Shown in pieces: positions 13,276 through 28,713 of a stretch of 52,492 bases of DNA (within the stretch, counting starts at the first letter, position 1; each line of letters opens with the position of its first letter). The stretch comes from an uncultured Ignavibacteriota bacterium (GTDB lineage: Bacteria > Bacteroidota > Ignavibacteria > Palsa-1295). Position numbers and translations under genes: made by a program. The notes under the pieces were generated by a model. It had not been told where the DNA came from and ran no database searches. It saw only the letters and a program-made list of their open reading frames with translations. The stretch is from the NCBI GenBank assembly GCA_903900335.1, contig CAIUMP010000039.1, forward strand, positions 1 through 52,492, written 5' to 3'.

Positions 13276-13332
13276 GATACGCATCATGCGCCTCGCCCTT
13301 CACAATTCATCATTCCTAATTTATCATTGCCC

Positions 13333-23042: not shown

Positions 23043-23690
23043 ATGAACACTTCCAACATCATCACAAAACGAATCATCGAACCACCCAGAGAGTCCGCCG
23101 CAACACACGAACGCGCACTCCCCAATACGCAGGACTCACCACGTAGCACTCAGGACTCTCCCCGCACCCGCTGGCTCACCATGGCAACCAACGATGTCGA
23201 TAGAGCCGGGGACATCCTCGATCTCTCCGGCATGGACGCCACCAACTTCCTCAAGAACCCGCAGTTCCTCTGGCAGCACGGCAAGAGCGGAGCGCAAGTA
23301 AACACCATCGGCAAAGTGCTCCAACTCCGCGTGGTGGGTGGCACCCTTGCCACCCAATCCCTCCAAGCCTTGGTCGAATACGCCCCCGCCGACATCAACC
23401 CGCTCGCCGAGCAGATATATCAACTCGATCTCCTCGGACTCCTCCCCGCCAACTCCATCGGCTTCCGTCCCATCGAGTGGCACGCCAACGACTTCGGCGG
23501 CAACACCTTCACCAAATGGGAGCTGATCGAATGCTCCAAAGTCGAACTGCCGATGAATCCGAGCGCGGTGGATAGTGGAAAGTGTATAGAGGAAAGTGTG
23601 GAGACGAAGGGACAGTTTATCGATCCCGATCAGCGCGCACTGTTCTCCGTAGATGATGCAGCGGATTGGCTACACCAACGTCCATCGTAA
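23043..23690 (+). CDS. HK97-type prohead protease (peptidase S78)
   Basis: The enzyme trims the scaffold and capsid N-terminus during head maturation. The catalytic His is in FLWQHGKSG (about 77) and the Ser in PANSIGFRPIEW (about 138), with the family strand WELIECSKVELPMNPSA after it. Two stretches look repeat-derived: residues about 17-40 (tcaggactc-rich DNA) and about 175-190 (gatagtggaaagtg DNA, giving DSGKCIEESVE). It is immediately followed by the capsid gene after a palindrome at 23693-23765. Confidence 0.9.
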   Translation: MNTSNIITKRIIEPPRESAATHERALPNTQDSPRSTQDSPRTRWLTMATNDVDRAGDILDLSGMDATNFLKNPQFLWQHGKSGAQVNTIGKVLQLRVVGGTLATQSLQALVEYAPADINPLAEQIYQLDLLGLLPANSIGFRPIEWHANDFGGNTFTKWELIECSKVELPMNPSAVDSGKCIEESVETKGQFIDPDQRALFSVDDAADWLHQRPS

Positions 23691-23692
23691 CG

Positions 23693-23765
23693 GTAGGGGT
23701 TAACGGCGTTAACCCGCCCCGGTTTACAATGCATACCCATTCGGGTCAACGCCGTTGACCCCTAC
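23693..23765. repeat. GTAGGGGTTAACGG-type palindromic repeat
   Basis: Arms gtaggggttaacggcgtta (from 23693) and its inverse ending at 23765 are nearly perfect. The repeat lies exactly between the protease stop and the capsid start. The same family occurs at 13116-13275 and 34649-34728. Confidence 0.85.
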
Positions 23766-23812
23766 ACATACAATCCTCATCCGCATTCTTACTTCTTACT
23801 TCCCAAACAACT

Positions 23813-25111
23813 ATGATAAGCATCAACCCAGAAACCAACACCCTCACCGCCACCCGCGACGAACTCACGCAGATCATTGACAAGTCCATTGAGCGCAAGA
23901 TCAAATCGCTGCCCGACCGCAGCGCACTCTCCGCGCTTACTCGCGAGGGCACACTCTCCACAACCACCACCGACATGACCAACACACCCGGCAACACTTT
24001 CACCAAAGGCGCGAACACGCAGCTTCTCGCATCGCCTGCTATTCGTGGAAAGATCACGAAGACGTTCCGTTTCTTCAACGCCGTCTCGCGCAACGATCAT
24101 CAGGACTTGCGCTCGATCATGCAGACGTATGAGCCGGAGTACATCCGCTCGCTTGCGCCGCAGCTTGAAGCGACTGGCTCCAACGGCGGCTATCTCGTGC
24201 CGCCCGAGTTCTACGCGGACGTGCTCTTCCTGCTCAACGAGTTCGGCTTCGCGCGCAAATACTGCGCGATGATTCAGATGAACACGAACGTGATGAACGT
24301 CTCCACGCTCTCCGGCAAACCCAGCGTTGCATGGACGAGCGAGAACGGCACCATCCCGTCGTCCAAAGGCACGTTCGGACGCCTGACGCTCACTGCGCAA
24401 AAGCTCGCCGCGATCTATCCCATCTCCAACGAACTGCTCGCCGACGCGAACATTGACGTGTATAATACCATCCTCCGCATCTTCGTCGAGGTCTTCGGAC
24501 AAGAAGAGGACACGCAGGTTTTTCGCGGCACGGGTTCGCCGTTCACCGGCATTCTGAATACGAGCGGCGTTGTCACAACGTATCTCGGCGCGAGCAGCAC
24601 GTCCGGCAAAACGAAGTACACGGACATCACGCTGGATGATCTCATCAATCTCGTGCAGTCCATCGGCCCAGCACAACAGCGCGGCGCGTGCCTCTTCATC
24701 GAGCAGAACACGCTCACCGATCTGCTGAAAAAGAAGGACTCGCAGAGCCGCTACCTGTGGGACTTGGCGCAGTCCAACGATCCACAGATCGCTGGCGCGG
24801 TTGGATTCAACGGCACCGGACTGAGCTTCCGTGGCTTCCCTGTCGTCGCGCTTCCGAACGGCGTCATCATCAATGGATATGATGGGTCGTCGCACGCGAG
24901 CACGCCGTTCGCAGTCTTCGGTAATCTCAAGAACGCTGGCGCGTGGATCGGCACACACGGCGCAATGGAAATGCGCATCAGTAGCGACGCCACCGTCGAG
25001 AACGTCAACGCATTCTCCAATGATCTGCAACTCCTGCGCATGACGGAGCGCATTGCGTTCGGTGTTGGTCAGCCGGGGTATTTGGCGGTGTTGTCAACGT
25101 CAGCATCGTAA
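23813..25111 (+). CDS. HK97-fold major capsid protein
   Basis: This 432-residue protein begins with an N-terminal helical region (DELTQIIDKSIERKIKSL) to be removed by the protease. The capsid fold follows: GSNGGYLVPPEFYADVLFLL, then AAIYPISNELLADANIDV with the E-loop-like arm, and FRGTGSPFTGILNTSG. The C-terminal part has FRGFPVVALP, FAVFGNLKNAGAWIG and MRMTERIAFGV. These are all hallmarks of HK97 coat proteins. It is intact and of normal length. Confidence 0.93.
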   Translation: MISINPETNTLTATRDELTQIIDKSIERKIKSLPDRSALSALTREGTLSTTTTDMTNTPGNTFTKGANTQLLASPAIRGKITKTFRFFNAVSRNDHQDLRSIMQTYEPEYIRSLAPQLEATGSNGGYLVPPEFYADVLFLLNEFGFARKYCAMIQMNTNVMNVSTLSGKPSVAWTSENGTIPSSKGTFGRLTLTAQKLAAIYPISNELLADANIDVYNTILRIFVEVFGQEEDTQVFRGTGSPFTGILNTSGVVTTYLGASSTSGKTKYTDITLDDLINLVQSIGPAQQRGACLFIEQNTLTDLLKKKDSQSRYLWDLAQSNDPQIAGAVGFNGTGLSFRGFPVVALPNGVIINGYDGSSHASTPFAVFGNLKNAGAWIGTHGAMEMRISSDATVENVNAFSNDLQLLRMTERIAFGVGQPGYLAVLSTSAS

Positions 25112-25193
25112 GCTCTTCGCCTCGGAGAGGCAGCGTTGTGTAACACGGTCGCGGCAGCGCCGTGGCGTGAACCGAATACCAACAAAACAAAAG

Positions 25194-25294
25194 CCCCTCT
25201 CCCAGCGGGAGAGGGGTTGGGGAGAGGCAGCCCCCGCGCCAACGCGCGTTCTGCCTCATCCCCCCGGCCCCCTTCTCCCGTTGGGAGAAGGGGG
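25194..25294. repeat. Pair of GAGAGGGG palindromes
   Basis: cccctctcccagcgggagag continues to a perfect palindrome at 25194-25216. cccccttctcccgttgggag does the same at 25268-25294. The two resemble one another and lie inverted around gttggggagaggcag and gaaggggg text. They fill the gap between capsid and connector genes. Confidence 0.75.
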
Positions 25295-25401
25295 AGTTGG
25301 AAAGCTCGATGTTCCCGGCGTTCCAGCACCGGGCTACTCAACGCAACGGCTTTGCCGCGAAGGCAACCCAATCCCCTCCATTCTTAATTTCTAATTCCAA
25401 A

Positions 25402-25995
25402 TTGGCAACTTTTACATCCCCCGTCTCCCTCGCATCCTTCCAAACATATCTCCACGATACATCCACCGACACAACGCTGACCGGCTTCTATCAATCGCTG
25501 TTGGACGCCGCAACGGAATATGTCTATAACTGGCTCGACCGCGATTACACCGCGAGCGCGTCCAAGACCGACATCTTCTTCGGCGACGACACGCAGTTCT
25601 ATGCGCCGCGTCATCAGGTTGGCGCGCTTACATCGTGGCACACCATTGATTCGTCCGGCACCGACACGAACGTTGGCACAAGCGATCTCATGCTGCGGGC
25701 CAATGGCTATCTCATTCAAGCTGGCGGCACGAAGATGTTTGCGTCGCAGTATGAGCATCGTATCGTCTATACTCAGCCAAGCACGCTGACGTGTCCCGAA
25801 ACGGTAAAGCAAGTCATCACCGAACTTGCAACGACGTTCTTCGCCGCAAGCAATCAAGGCGCTGGCACGCTCGGACTCCTCACCACCTCCTCCCGCGACA
25901 CCGGCCCCGGCGGTGCGACCGACCGCGAGCGTTTCCTGGATTTAACAGATCGGCATAAGGAGATGCTGCGGCCGTATAAGCGGTATCCGGTGTAG
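25402..25995 (+). CDS. Phage head-tail connector protein (gp6-like)
   Basis: I use the TTG at 25402 (reads MATFTSPVSLASFQTYLHDT), because upstream codons are repeat DNA. The family begins exactly with a short strand and then helix LHDTSTDTTLTGFYQSLLDAATEYVYNWLDRDYT, matching phiE125 gp8-type connectors. The C-terminus has PETVKQVITELATTFFAA, a helix of the same family. The position right after the capsid gene fits. No other tail-connector gene is recognised. Confidence 0.8.
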   Translation: MATFTSPVSLASFQTYLHDTSTDTTLTGFYQSLLDAATEYVYNWLDRDYTASASKTDIFFGDDTQFYAPRHQVGALTSWHTIDSSGTDTNVGTSDLMLRANGYLIQAGGTKMFASQYEHRIVYTQPSTLTCPETVKQVITELATTFFAASNQGAGTLGLLTTSSRDTGPGGATDRERFLDLTDRHKEMLRPYKRYPV

Positions 25996-25998
25996 GGC

Positions 25999-26467
25999 AA
26001 TTATGAATTATGAATGATGAATTATGAAGGGGCTCATTTGTAATCGCGCTGGCCTTTCAGTATTGTCGTTAGAATGGCGATGAGTTCATTTGTCTCTTGC
26101 ATTAGCGGCTCAAGTCGCTCTATCGGGACGATCTCTGCTTCGCCGAGCAACTCCAACCAATAGAGGCTCTCATCGAGCTCTTGAACAGAGCCTGTTATCT
26201 TACTAATGAAATCTGCCTTGGATTTCGCGCGATACCCTTCCCGAAACTGCGCGCCAACGGATGTACCAGAACGAAGCAACTGCACACCAACCACCTCCGA
26301 CTCTTTCGAACGCGGCAGCTTGCGGTACAGCCGAATAATTCTTAACGCATAATTCTTCGTCCTCTGTCGTAGGTCGTCAGCCTTCATGATTCGTAAACAC
26401 CGCTCACCACTTCCATAATTTCCCTTTCCCCTCCCCTTTCATAATTCATCATTCATAATTCATAATT
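25999..26467. mobile_element. Candidate 469-bp element with perfect 30-bp inverted ends around a four-helix-bundle gene
   Basis: The left end (25999-26028, starting aattatgaattatgaatgat) and right end (26438-26467, starting ttcataattcatcattcata) are perfect 30-bp inverted repeats. Between them lies only the minus-strand S23-type gene. The element starts 3 bp after the connector stop and ends 4 bp before the next phage start. Related AT-rich text appears at 13298-13332 and 12430-12450. No transposase is encoded. Confidence 0.7.
26034..26387 (-). CDS. Four-helix-bundle protein of the S23/23S-rRNA IVS type
   Basis: The 117-residue all-helical protein has the family marks QRTKNYALRIIRLYRKLPRS, LLRSGTSVGAQFREGYRAKS and FISKITGSVQELDESLYWL. 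Members are often coded in intervening sequences of 23S rRNA, or free-standing between repeats. Related folds include the Avd accessory protein of diversity-generating retroelements. Here it is free-standing, on the strand opposite to the phage genes, inside inverted repeats. Its biochemical role is not known. Confidence 0.9.
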   Translation of the reverse strand: MKADDLRQRTKNYALRIIRLYRKLPRSKESEVVGVQLLRSGTSVGAQFREGYRAKSKADFISKITGSVQELDESLYWLELLGEAEIVPIERLEPLMQETNELIAILTTILKGQRDYK

Positions 26468-26471
26468 CCCG

Positions 26472-26924
26472 ATGACACGAGAGCTCCTCTTCACATCCTC
26501 CTTCGAATCCCAACTCGCAACAACAACTGGTTGGAACAACCTTGATACATCTGTTGGCACATCTCCAACGCATGCACTCGCTCCATCGGACTTCCCCGGC
26601 TTCGTCATCCTGCCTGGTGAAGCAATGTACACAGCATACGATAGCGGCGGACATCCAACTGCCGGACTGCAACACTTCACGTTGCGTGTGCTCGTCAATC
26701 ATCCGCAACTTGCGCTTAGCGCCGCGCGAACAACGCGCTCCGATTACGTCGGACTCATCGAAGCATTCTTCTCCGGCGGTTACACACCGCCTGCCATCAC
26801 CACCGGCGATCCCGTCCGCATTGATAGCATCATTCTCGAAAAGATCGACCCCGCCACGCTCAACAAGAACGACACGCGCTCGGTGATCGCGGCGCATGGT
26901 GCATACCACTTTACACTTCTCTAA
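26472..26924 (+). CDS. Small phage-like protein of unknown function
   Basis: The 150-residue protein starts at ATG 26472 directly after the repeat, with MTRELLFTSSFESQ, and ends AHGAYHFTLL. The position after the connector fits a head-closure or tail-terminator slot, but I do not recognise the family. It contains several short strands and few charged patches. Confidence 0.55.
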   Translation: MTRELLFTSSFESQLATTTGWNNLDTSVGTSPTHALAPSDFPGFVILPGEAMYTAYDSGGHPTAGLQHFTLRVLVNHPQLALSAARTTRSDYVGLIEAFFSGGYTPPAITTGDPVRIDSIILEKIDPATLNKNDTRSVIAAHGAYHFTLL

Positions 26925-27020
26925 TCTGAACCTTGATTTTAAGAGATGAAGAAGATTTTCGAGATAGGATTCTTCCCCGATCTACCTAATCTCCAACATC
27001 TCCTAAAATCATGGTTCAGA
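26925..27020. repeat. TCTGAACC-type palindrome
   Basis: Arms tctgaaccttgattttaaga (26925-) and its inverse ending ggttcaga (27020) match over about 24 bp with two changes. It starts one base after the stop of the 26472-26924 gene and ends 9 bp before the next ATG. It resembles a repeat family I recall in Bacteroidota; that is knowledge, not shown here. Confidence 0.8.
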
Positions 27021-27029
27021 CATTCCCCT

Positions 27030-27449
27030 ATGACTAACTTATACTTACACCACCGCAACTCCCCCTCCGACGCCTGGACCGCCGTCCCATCGCTCGTCAC
27101 GGTCTTCCCCAATTCACCTGTCGGTACGCTGCCGGTATCATCCGTTGTCATCGAGTCTGGCCCGCAGGCTGTGACACCGTGCGGCTGCTCTGGCGATAGC
27201 ACGGATGATTCCTATCTCATCCTCCGCGTTGAATGCGCACTGATACCGCTTGCATCGCAACCCGCCATTCTCTCCTTCCTCATCGCCTACAAAACGGCAA
27301 CATACTTCGAAGCGAAGATGACGCGCTATGGGCAAGGCGGATACATCACCGCGACGCTTTCCCAGATCAATGCCGAAGAGAAGAACGGGATGCTGCATCT
27401 TGGATTCCGTCTCGCCGCCGCGCTTGCTGACTCGTTGACCAATACATAA
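27030..27449 (+). CDS. Small phage-like protein of unknown function
   Basis: I use ATG 27030 (MTNLYLHHRNSPSDAWTAVP); the frame opens earlier, but inside the palindrome at 26925-27020. The 139-residue protein has a cysteine-containing loop (VTPCGCSGD) and ends GFRLAAALADSLTNT. It lies 15 bp before the lytic transglycosylase gene. It could be a virion or neck component, without recognised family. Confidence 0.5.
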   Translation: MTNLYLHHRNSPSDAWTAVPSLVTVFPNSPVGTLPVSSVVIESGPQAVTPCGCSGDSTDDSYLILRVECALIPLASQPAILSFLIAYKTATYFEAKMTRYGQGGYITATLSQINAEEKNGMLHLGFRLAAALADSLTNT

Positions 27450-27464
27450 TCACACTGTGCATTC

Positions 27465-28091
27465 ATGTCCACACTCATCACTCTACTACTACTTCATGCC
27501 ACTGCATCCATCCCAACTCTCCTATCCGATACTCTCGACCACACGCTGCTCGTTGATTCCCTCCGAGCGACTCGCACAGTTCTGGTGCCGTATCAAGCAG
27601 AGATCGAAGCTGCTGCTGCCAGCGCTCATCTTCCTGCCGCGTTGCTCGCTGGCGTTATTCAGGAAGAGTCTCGCTTTGAGCCGTTCGCTACTCGCGCCGA
27701 AGCACGATACATGAGAAGCAAACGTGTCCGCCGTGCGGCCGCACGATGGTGCGCTACGCATCGCACCTCTGCGAGCGTCTTCACCGAGTTGCTCGATCGA
27801 TCTCGTTCGTACGGTCTCACCCAGATCATGGGTGAGACCGCGCGGGAGCAGGGATTTGCCAACACCTATCTCGCTGAGCTCTATCTGCCGCGCAACGCGC
27901 TGGAGCATGGCGCGCTCTTGCTGCATCGGTTGCTTGTCCGTTATCACGATGACACACTCGCTGCCATCAGCGCATATAATCAGGGCACTGCACGCAAGCA
28001 TCGTGGTGTGTTCGTCAATGCACGCTATGTCTATCGTGTGACACTTGCGTGGCGTGCCTATGAGCGGCTCTTTCACGAACGCGGAGGATAG
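27465..28091 (+). CDS. Lytic transglycosylase (SLT-type)
   Basis: This 208-residue protein cuts peptidoglycan between MurNAc and GlcNAc, as in phage DNA entry or lysis. Its hydrophobic N-terminus (MSTLITLLLLHATASIPTLL) is probably a signal peptide. The SLT fold follows with LAGVIQEESRFEPFATR (catalytic Glu), SYGLTQIMGETAREQ and LAAISAYNQGTARK. It ends with a helical stretch. The neighbouring membrane protein starts 3 bp downstream, suggesting a lysis cassette. Confidence 0.85.
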   Translation: MSTLITLLLLHATASIPTLLSDTLDHTLLVDSLRATRTVLVPYQAEIEAAAASAHLPAALLAGVIQEESRFEPFATRAEARYMRSKRVRRAAARWCATHRTSASVFTELLDRSRSYGLTQIMGETAREQGFANTYLAELYLPRNALEHGALLLHRLLVRYHDDTLAAISAYNQGTARKHRGVFVNARYVYRVTLAWRAYERLFHERGG

Positions 28092-28586: not shown

Positions 28587-28604
28587 TAGCTGTGTCCTTG
28601 TGTT

Positions 28605-28685
28605 GTCATTCCCGCGAACGCGAGAATTCATCCTTCATTATAGCCGGGATGGAAGGGACTGGATTCCCGCGTTCGCGGGAATGAC
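28605..28685. repeat. GTCATTCCCGCGAACGCG palindromic repeat
   Basis: Arms gtcattcccgcgaacgcg (from 28605) and cgcgttcgcgggaatgac (to 28685) are perfect over 18 bp. It ends 29 bp before the terminator at 28714. It shares the GTCATT ends with 1508-1581 and 37843-37931. Confidence 0.85.
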
Positions 28686-28713
28686 AGTGTGGGAGCGTTG
28701 CGAGGAGCAAGCA

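Follow-up and report, generated by a model that had tools for sequence, protein, structure and literature searches.

The window (the whole stretch of 52,492 nucleotides analysed here) carries, in the slot between a head-tail adaptor gene and a gene for a 150-aa protein, a compact inverted-repeat unit with an S23 gene as its only ORF; the coordinates of the unit and of the features around it are collected in Table 1. The 30-nt arms are perfect inverted copies of one another and the extended arms, 37 nt each, are 95% complementary. The inverted-repeat score of the locus is 32 while none of 559 control windows of equal geometry reaches a score of at least 18, and the repeat is therefore not a product of chance. 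The initial annotation, made from the letters alone, described perfect 30-bp inverted ends (25999-26467) that enclose a single minus-strand four-helix-bundle gene, without a transposase, placed exactly between the adaptor stop codon and the next ATG; this description is exact to the base, and no transposase-family match is present in the unit. What does not stand is the idea of a fixed 30-bp terminal sequence, as the ends are tandem heptamer arrays.

Table 1. Features of the S23 unit and its surroundings, in positions of the window
Feature	Position	Strand	Description
Lone degenerate array	13299..13328	-	AATTATG type, 4 mismatches, without S23 gene
Phage-like gene cluster	23043..28091		Protease, HK97-type capsid, head-tail adaptor and lytic transglycosylase genes
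Nested inverted element	25194..25292		CCCCTCTCCCAGCGGGAGAGGGG / CCCTTCTCCCGTTGGGAGAAGGG; between capsid and connector genes; resembles DUF559 ends
Head-tail adaptor (connector) gene	25297..25995	+	phrog_442; stop codon is left border of slot
Inverted-repeat unit	25996..26470		475 bp, extended arms included
Left heptamer array	25999..26028	+	AATTATG AATTATG AATGATG AATTATG AA; five AAT/AA cores, 7-nt spacing; extended arm 25996-26032
S23 / four-helix-bundle gene	26034..26387	-	Intact, 117 aa; PF05635, TIGR02436, structure model, fold match
Right heptamer array	26438..26467	-	Perfect inverted copy of left array, variant third unit AATGATG included; extended arm 26434-26470
150-aa gene	26472..26924	+	In 9/13 genomes of the family; ATG is right border of slot
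Inverted repeat	26925..27020		44 nt (77%, 8-nt loop), TCTGAACCTTGATTTTAAGAGAT...; ends as around GxxExxY genes
Inverted repeat	28604..28686		27 nt, 93%, TGTCATTCCCGCGAACGCG / TGGATTCCCGCGTTCGCGGGAATGACA; presumably a commonly seen dispersed repeat

The encoded protein is a member of the S23 / IVP four-helix-bundle family, matching PF05635 (E 5.8e-19, 68.7 bits against a curated cut-off of 33.8) and TIGR02436 (E 1e-24, 86.9 bits against a curated cut-off of 24), with a predicted model of four helices (pLDDT 95.0). A fold search returns 2RLD as the best match, followed by 2GSC and by Avd (4DWL, 8UB7), the nearest remote fold relatives being Avd and Avd inside the ribonucleoproteins of diversity-generating retroelements (DGRs), a relation that the initial annotation also named. 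Both solved S23 structures, 2GSC and 2RLD, contain five chains each. As the protein is without a catalytic domain, the unit could move only by recruiting host replication, repair or another enzyme. An Rfam scan gives no credible match, and a search for rRNA at 24-29 kb of the window gives no match.

Relatives of the 150-aa gene downstream of the adaptor occur in every one of the seven genus genomes and in two others of the family. As the neighbouring phage-like genes have relatives throughout the genus, the site cannot simply be put down to a recent prophage, and the surrounding genes form a fixed phage-like cluster. The unit as cargo of a recent prophage was rejected on the conservation of the 150-aa gene across the genus; capsid relatives sought in viral contigs were not found. 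A type IX secretion tail domain is also encoded in the window.

Inverted heptamer-type ends are broadly associated with S23 genes

For 103 non-redundant S23 loci, drawn from 80 named genomes (found with a protein motif, blind to repeats), 11 viral-collection contigs and the family of the window, an inverted-repeat score was computed between the 300-bp flanks of the S23 gene, with a cut-off of at least 15 and with 559 control windows from the same contigs. This score is reached at 77% of the S23 loci, which represent many phyla, and in 0.7% of the control windows; period-7 arrays on both sides of the gene are found at 48% and 1.4%, respectively. Periods 8 and 9 are also enriched at S23 loci, with period 7 dominant, and periods 4-6, 10-13, 15 and 17 show no enrichment over the controls. 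In a stricter control of 123 other small ORFs, five score at least 15, of which four proved to be S23 genes as well, recognisable by their conserved motifs. Additional loci give the same picture: arrays are present at 13 of 14 further loci from the family of the window (11 of 14 scoring at least 15), 13 of 17 new loci reach the cut-off when 13 genomes are searched for all their S23 genes, and all 11 plasmid S23 loci (10 of them cyanobacterial) have inverted ends, most of them clearly. The S23 reading frame is intact at most loci, and S23 is the only gene seen between heptamer-array ends of this kind. The data show a broad association of inverted heptamer-type ends with S23 genes, and no earlier paper joining the two was found among the searchable open-licence PMC literature. 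A motif search found no S23 locus inside 23S rRNA among the loci collected by then, and the rRNA link thus rests on the literature. Several plasmid units (L350-L358) lie between genes of defence operons, including DISARM drmD, type I-D cas6/cas4 and a csx2/cas1 cluster.

Each S23 gene comes with a heptamer of its own. A family search of the 4.0-Mb window assembly yields four S23 loci, all between inverted heptamer arrays and all with different heptamers (GGGGTGT, AGTAACG, AATTATG and AGATGAA, the last surrounding an S23 pseudogene), and the S23 genes of genome G031 have AGTTCTC, GCAGTTG, CAGCTCT and AGGTCTT. A single terminal repeat common to S23 genes was therefore rejected. The initial annotation proposed a search for copies of the 30-bp end at other S23 genes; repeat ends are indeed present there, so that they are neither unique to this locus nor missing from S23 genes elsewhere, but these ends are the genes' own heptamer arrays and not copies of the window 30-mer. 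In one case the flanking repeats of a same-family relative (L025) are identical letter for letter to those of a Candidatus Kapaibacterium contig (L080). Taken with the type IX secretion tail domain in the window, this makes it most likely that the source organism belongs to the Kapabacteria.

Between unrelated sites, heptamers resemble each other when the S23 proteins are related, with a mean profile distance of 0.35 at protein distances of 0.30-0.45 and of 0.48-0.50 beyond 0.45. The correlation between heptamer and protein distance is real but modest (Mantel r 0.12, 10 of 5000 permutations), and it would equally arise if gene and ends were inherited together as a unit. On the S23 protein tree, loci of period 8 or 9 are clustered (10 changes against 14.0 expected, p 0.001). 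The commonest arm measures 29-34 nt (68/145), which corresponds to four heptamers plus about 3 nt, or to five short cores at a 7-nt pitch, and the remainders of array length modulo 7 are significant only via this 4-unit mode. Read inward, 118 arms are purine-rich and 23 purine-poor, a bias that suits recognition of one strand. The notion that the third heptamer is always a variant was dropped, as the excess of mismatches in middle units is at least partly an effect of end fitting, and concerted evolution of the arms is not claimed, since in the prs slot the resemblance of arms within a locus does not consistently exceed that between species.

Slot states and gene-less arrays

The slot between the adaptor and 150-aa genes was compared in nine genomes. 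It holds the S23 unit in G000, a gene-less hairpin in G009 whose heptamers (TAGTTGA/TAGTGGA) are those of one S23 locus of that same genome (L211), a hairpin of another heptamer in G012, decayed hairpins in G008 and G010, a GxxExxY-type hairpin in G005, and a long inverted repeat with GTCATTCTGAGCGAAGCGAAGAATC in G006 (L161; fold -73.4 kcal/mol); a short plain spacer is present in G007, and the two genes overlap in G002. At ftsY|mutL, a unit occurs in G000 only, where its array provides the stop codon of ftsY (...GEEVTSNE and stop), with a lone fragment in G006, a gene-less hairpin in G011 and several other genomes empty. At tRNA|prs, G006 and G008 have an intact S23 gene, G000 a pseudogene and G007 a remnant; from G010 the gene has been lost, leaving the arrays and a C-terminal scrap.

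A similar range of states is found in a distant phylum, in the cas6|cas4 slot of type I-D CRISPR operons on cyanobacterial plasmids. The S23 unit of Anabaena sp. 90 is replaced on the Dolichospermum UHCC 0315A plasmid (L359) by an inverted element, GTTGGGTT...AACCCAACCTAC, within flanks that are 98.8% identical between the two plasmids, while Pseudanabaena galeata has an S23 unit with another heptamer, Pseudanabaena ABRG5-3 a lone AATTACG array, and two other plasmids nothing. The slot states in the family of the window and at cas6|cas4 indicate that units are gained, lost and exchanged in intergenic slots. By comparison of sites, recurrent acquisition is shown, and at least one exchange (Anabaena/Dolichospermum), seen without direction, appears to be recent. 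No target-site duplication is visible at ftsY|mutL, in the slot of the window or at cas6|cas4, where the flanks diverge or another element fills the slot. A Calothrix plasmid pair was rejected as an example of a lone unit having moved, as a multi-gene block is common to both plasmids.

Arrays also occur dispersed and without a gene. The window genome contains about a dozen AATTATG-similar arrays without an S23 gene, as counted from patterns and sampled stretches. For Xanthomonas, approximately 185 GGGAATC arrays per genome, with 70-75 inverted pairs, have been described with no gene named (Rehm et al. 2015, PMC4692102), and 83-90% of those in X. campestris hold their position in X. axonopodis (PMC4692102), indicating that array spread is slow in these bacteria. 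The sole S23 gene of Xanthomonas vasicola has GGGAATC arrays as its ends. The doubled motif (GGGAATC x2) is counted 91, 140, 36 and 88 times in four Xanthomonadaceae and not once in 22 other genomes having S23 genes with different ends. In Rhodanobacter DHB23, GGGATTC arrays were predicted from the ends of the single S23 gene and were found, with 84 matches against 0 for GGGAATC; the other four Xanthomonadaceae have 0-17 GGGATTC matches. These 84 matches make up 57 arrays, and 16 neighbouring array pairs have the polarity of the unit (15 of them 24-98 nt apart) versus one of opposite polarity, 443 nt apart. A single S23 gene is accompanied by dozens of arrays in X. vasicola, Luteimonas salinisoli and Rhodanobacter DHB23. 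Exceptions are Luteimonas cucumeris, with 88 GGGAATC matches and yet other ends at its two S23 genes, and two relatives of the window genome (G005 and G009), which have AATKATG arrays and no matching S23 gene among the loci read. In small samples of S23-poor versus S23-rich genomes, one pair differs in the expected direction (G007/G008, 0 versus 5 strong arrays) and another (G003/G002) does not.

Two other small-gene families have ends of a comparable design in the family of the window. Inverted ends are present at all 17 testable loci of GxxExxY (TIGR04256) genes, with TCTGAACC or AACC in units of about 9-10 nt, and at 15 of 16 loci of DUF559 genes, of the CCCCTCC..GGAGGGG kind. The slots next to that of the S23 unit contain gene-less hairpins of both the GxxExxY and DUF559 types as well as a TGTCATTCCCGCG element; judged by its end sequences, the inverted repeat directly downstream of the 150-aa gene is a putative gene-less GxxExxY-type element.

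A candidate mobile unit and its relatives

Among known systems, the unit is closest in build to the intervening sequences (IVS) of rRNA, with which it shares a single S23 ORF inside stem-forming inverted repeats, a sporadic distribution and long-suspected mobility. The Coxiella 23S rRNA IVS, S23 ORF included, is 428-444 nt long and closes in a terminal stem of 28 bp, mobility having been suspected since 1993 (PMC4990558), as compared with 475 bp and a 30-37-bp stem in the window. Units of the window type differ in that they end in heptamer arrays, to which many gene-less arrays in the genome are related, and that their S23 frames are mostly intact; the window unit is moreover located outside rRNA and is thus not an rRNA IVS as defined. 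By analogy, it can be regarded as the free-standing counterpart of the 23S rRNA IVS, and the free-standing unit may be the general form of which the rRNA IVS is a special case. REPIN/RAYT systems likewise consist of a gene between inverted repeats together with dispersed gene-less pairs of the same repeat, but they have a Y1 (HUH) transposase and ends that are single palindromes. The S23 unit has no such transposase and is therefore not a member of this class; its ends are period-7 arrays, and several S23 systems with different heptamers coexist in one genome. Short length, inverted ends, internally deleted derivatives and empty sites are features in common with MITEs and insertion sequences, from which the lack of a transposase in the unit, the lack of a visible target duplication and the variable tandem-array ends set it apart. 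The known heptamer repeats, including the cyanobacterial STRR, TAACTGA (PMC4679880) and GGGNATC (PMC4692102), are arrays of the same kind as the S23 ends, and the GGGAATC of the latter study is the heptamer of the Xanthomonadaceae S23 units, but they were described without a gene partner, with inverted pairs noted and left unexplained. The mobile element might be a TAACTGA-binding protein itself, as MacGregor (2015, PMC4679880) guessed, and TAACTGA-like units are present at one S23 gene (L106).

The empty, gene-less and gene-bearing slot states, the dispersed gene-less copies and the exchange between plasmids are in keeping with the minimal non-autonomous mobile element suggested at the outset, and it is from these that we infer mobility. 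We consider it reasonably probable that gene and ends form a transposase-less, REPIN/RAYT-like mobile unit, in which the ends are the sites of an S23 pentamer and are copied in trans. The S23 protein would function as a homopentamer with the ends as its predicted cognate sites, each consisting of about five short cores in inverted arrangement, spaced 7 nt and, in some clades, 8 or 9 nt. The pentamer probably reads five cores 7 nt apart; it would bind the arrays, in the most likely case in RNA or single-stranded DNA form and with each subunit taking one core, and would thereby hold both foldback ends. New copies of the ends, or of the unit as a whole, would then be placed in intergenic slots by host replication or repair, or by another enzyme acting in trans. 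Units that lose their gene internally would remain as hairpins that may still be recognised, as REPINs relate to the RAYT gene. Five cores for five subunits is put forward as the simplest working hypothesis and would explain the change of period between clades; the binding of arrays by the pentamer, mobilisation in trans and the enzyme for cutting and copying are postulated on the same footing.

A different and rather doubtful account holds that the arrays serve a function as RNA hairpins between genes of the same direction, with S23 as an RNA-binding regulator of processing, stability or attenuation that is autoregulated via its own arrays and kept by selection rather than selfish spread. The refilling of the same slots by an S23 unit, a heptamer hairpin, a GxxExxY-type hairpin or another inverted repeat would agree with such a role, as would the stable predicted stems of the slot hairpins (-65 to -74 kcal/mol), the positional conservation and predominant transcription of the Xanthomonas arrays (PMC4692102), and the action of the fold relative Avd in an RNA complex. 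However, many slots are empty in close relatives, the heptamer is free to change, arrays can invade coding ends (ftsY, cas4), and the genes that adjoin arrays have no function in common.

It is improbable that S23 genes are passengers that have landed in or between arrays generated by slippage or by an unrelated transposase. Arrays do occur without a cognate S23 gene and the protein lacks a catalytic domain, but passenger status is hard to reconcile with an association of 77% versus 0.7% over many phyla in a fixed inverted layout, with a period that tracks the protein clade, and with the near confinement of array ends to S23 genes among the control small ORFs. The least probable route is spread via RNA, in which RNase III would cut out the S23 transcript at its stem and a resident reverse transcriptase would copy it into DNA, S23 taking the part of Avd. 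This movement is possible but unsupported: the fold matches to Avd, free and inside DGR ribonucleoproteins, and the resemblance to a 428-nt rRNA IVS that RNase III cleaves at its 28-bp terminal stem (PMC4990558) speak for it, and Avd, with the same fold (4DWL, 8UB7), works with RNA, but the S23 unit has no template/variable repeat pair, and no reverse transcriptase is found beside it among the window ORFs scanned at 20-34 kb.

A wider form of the preferred reading, a mobile gene-plus-ends unit, is offered tentatively. S23 pentamers would be sequence-specific readers of five cores at a 7-nt pitch that spread heptamer hairpins in trans, and the units of S23, GxxExxY and DUF559 genes would together represent, as three branches, an unnamed transposase-less class of one small gene plus inverted ends, accounting for much of the intergenic hairpin load of bacteria, the rRNA IVS included. 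Heptameric repeats have been reported in bacteria since about 1990, and rRNA IVS with S23 ORFs for about as long; to our knowledge, both have been without a mechanism. The link between S23 genes and arrays supplies candidate partners to both, in that the repeats acquire a gene and the S23 proteins a family of elements found genome-wide, and, as the binding site predicted for each S23 protein can be read from the ends of its own gene, a sharp test is possible. S23 proteins may bind and spread array repeats and, should the parallels with GxxExxY and DUF559 prove right, a few gene families now without functional annotation would account for many intergenic hairpins.
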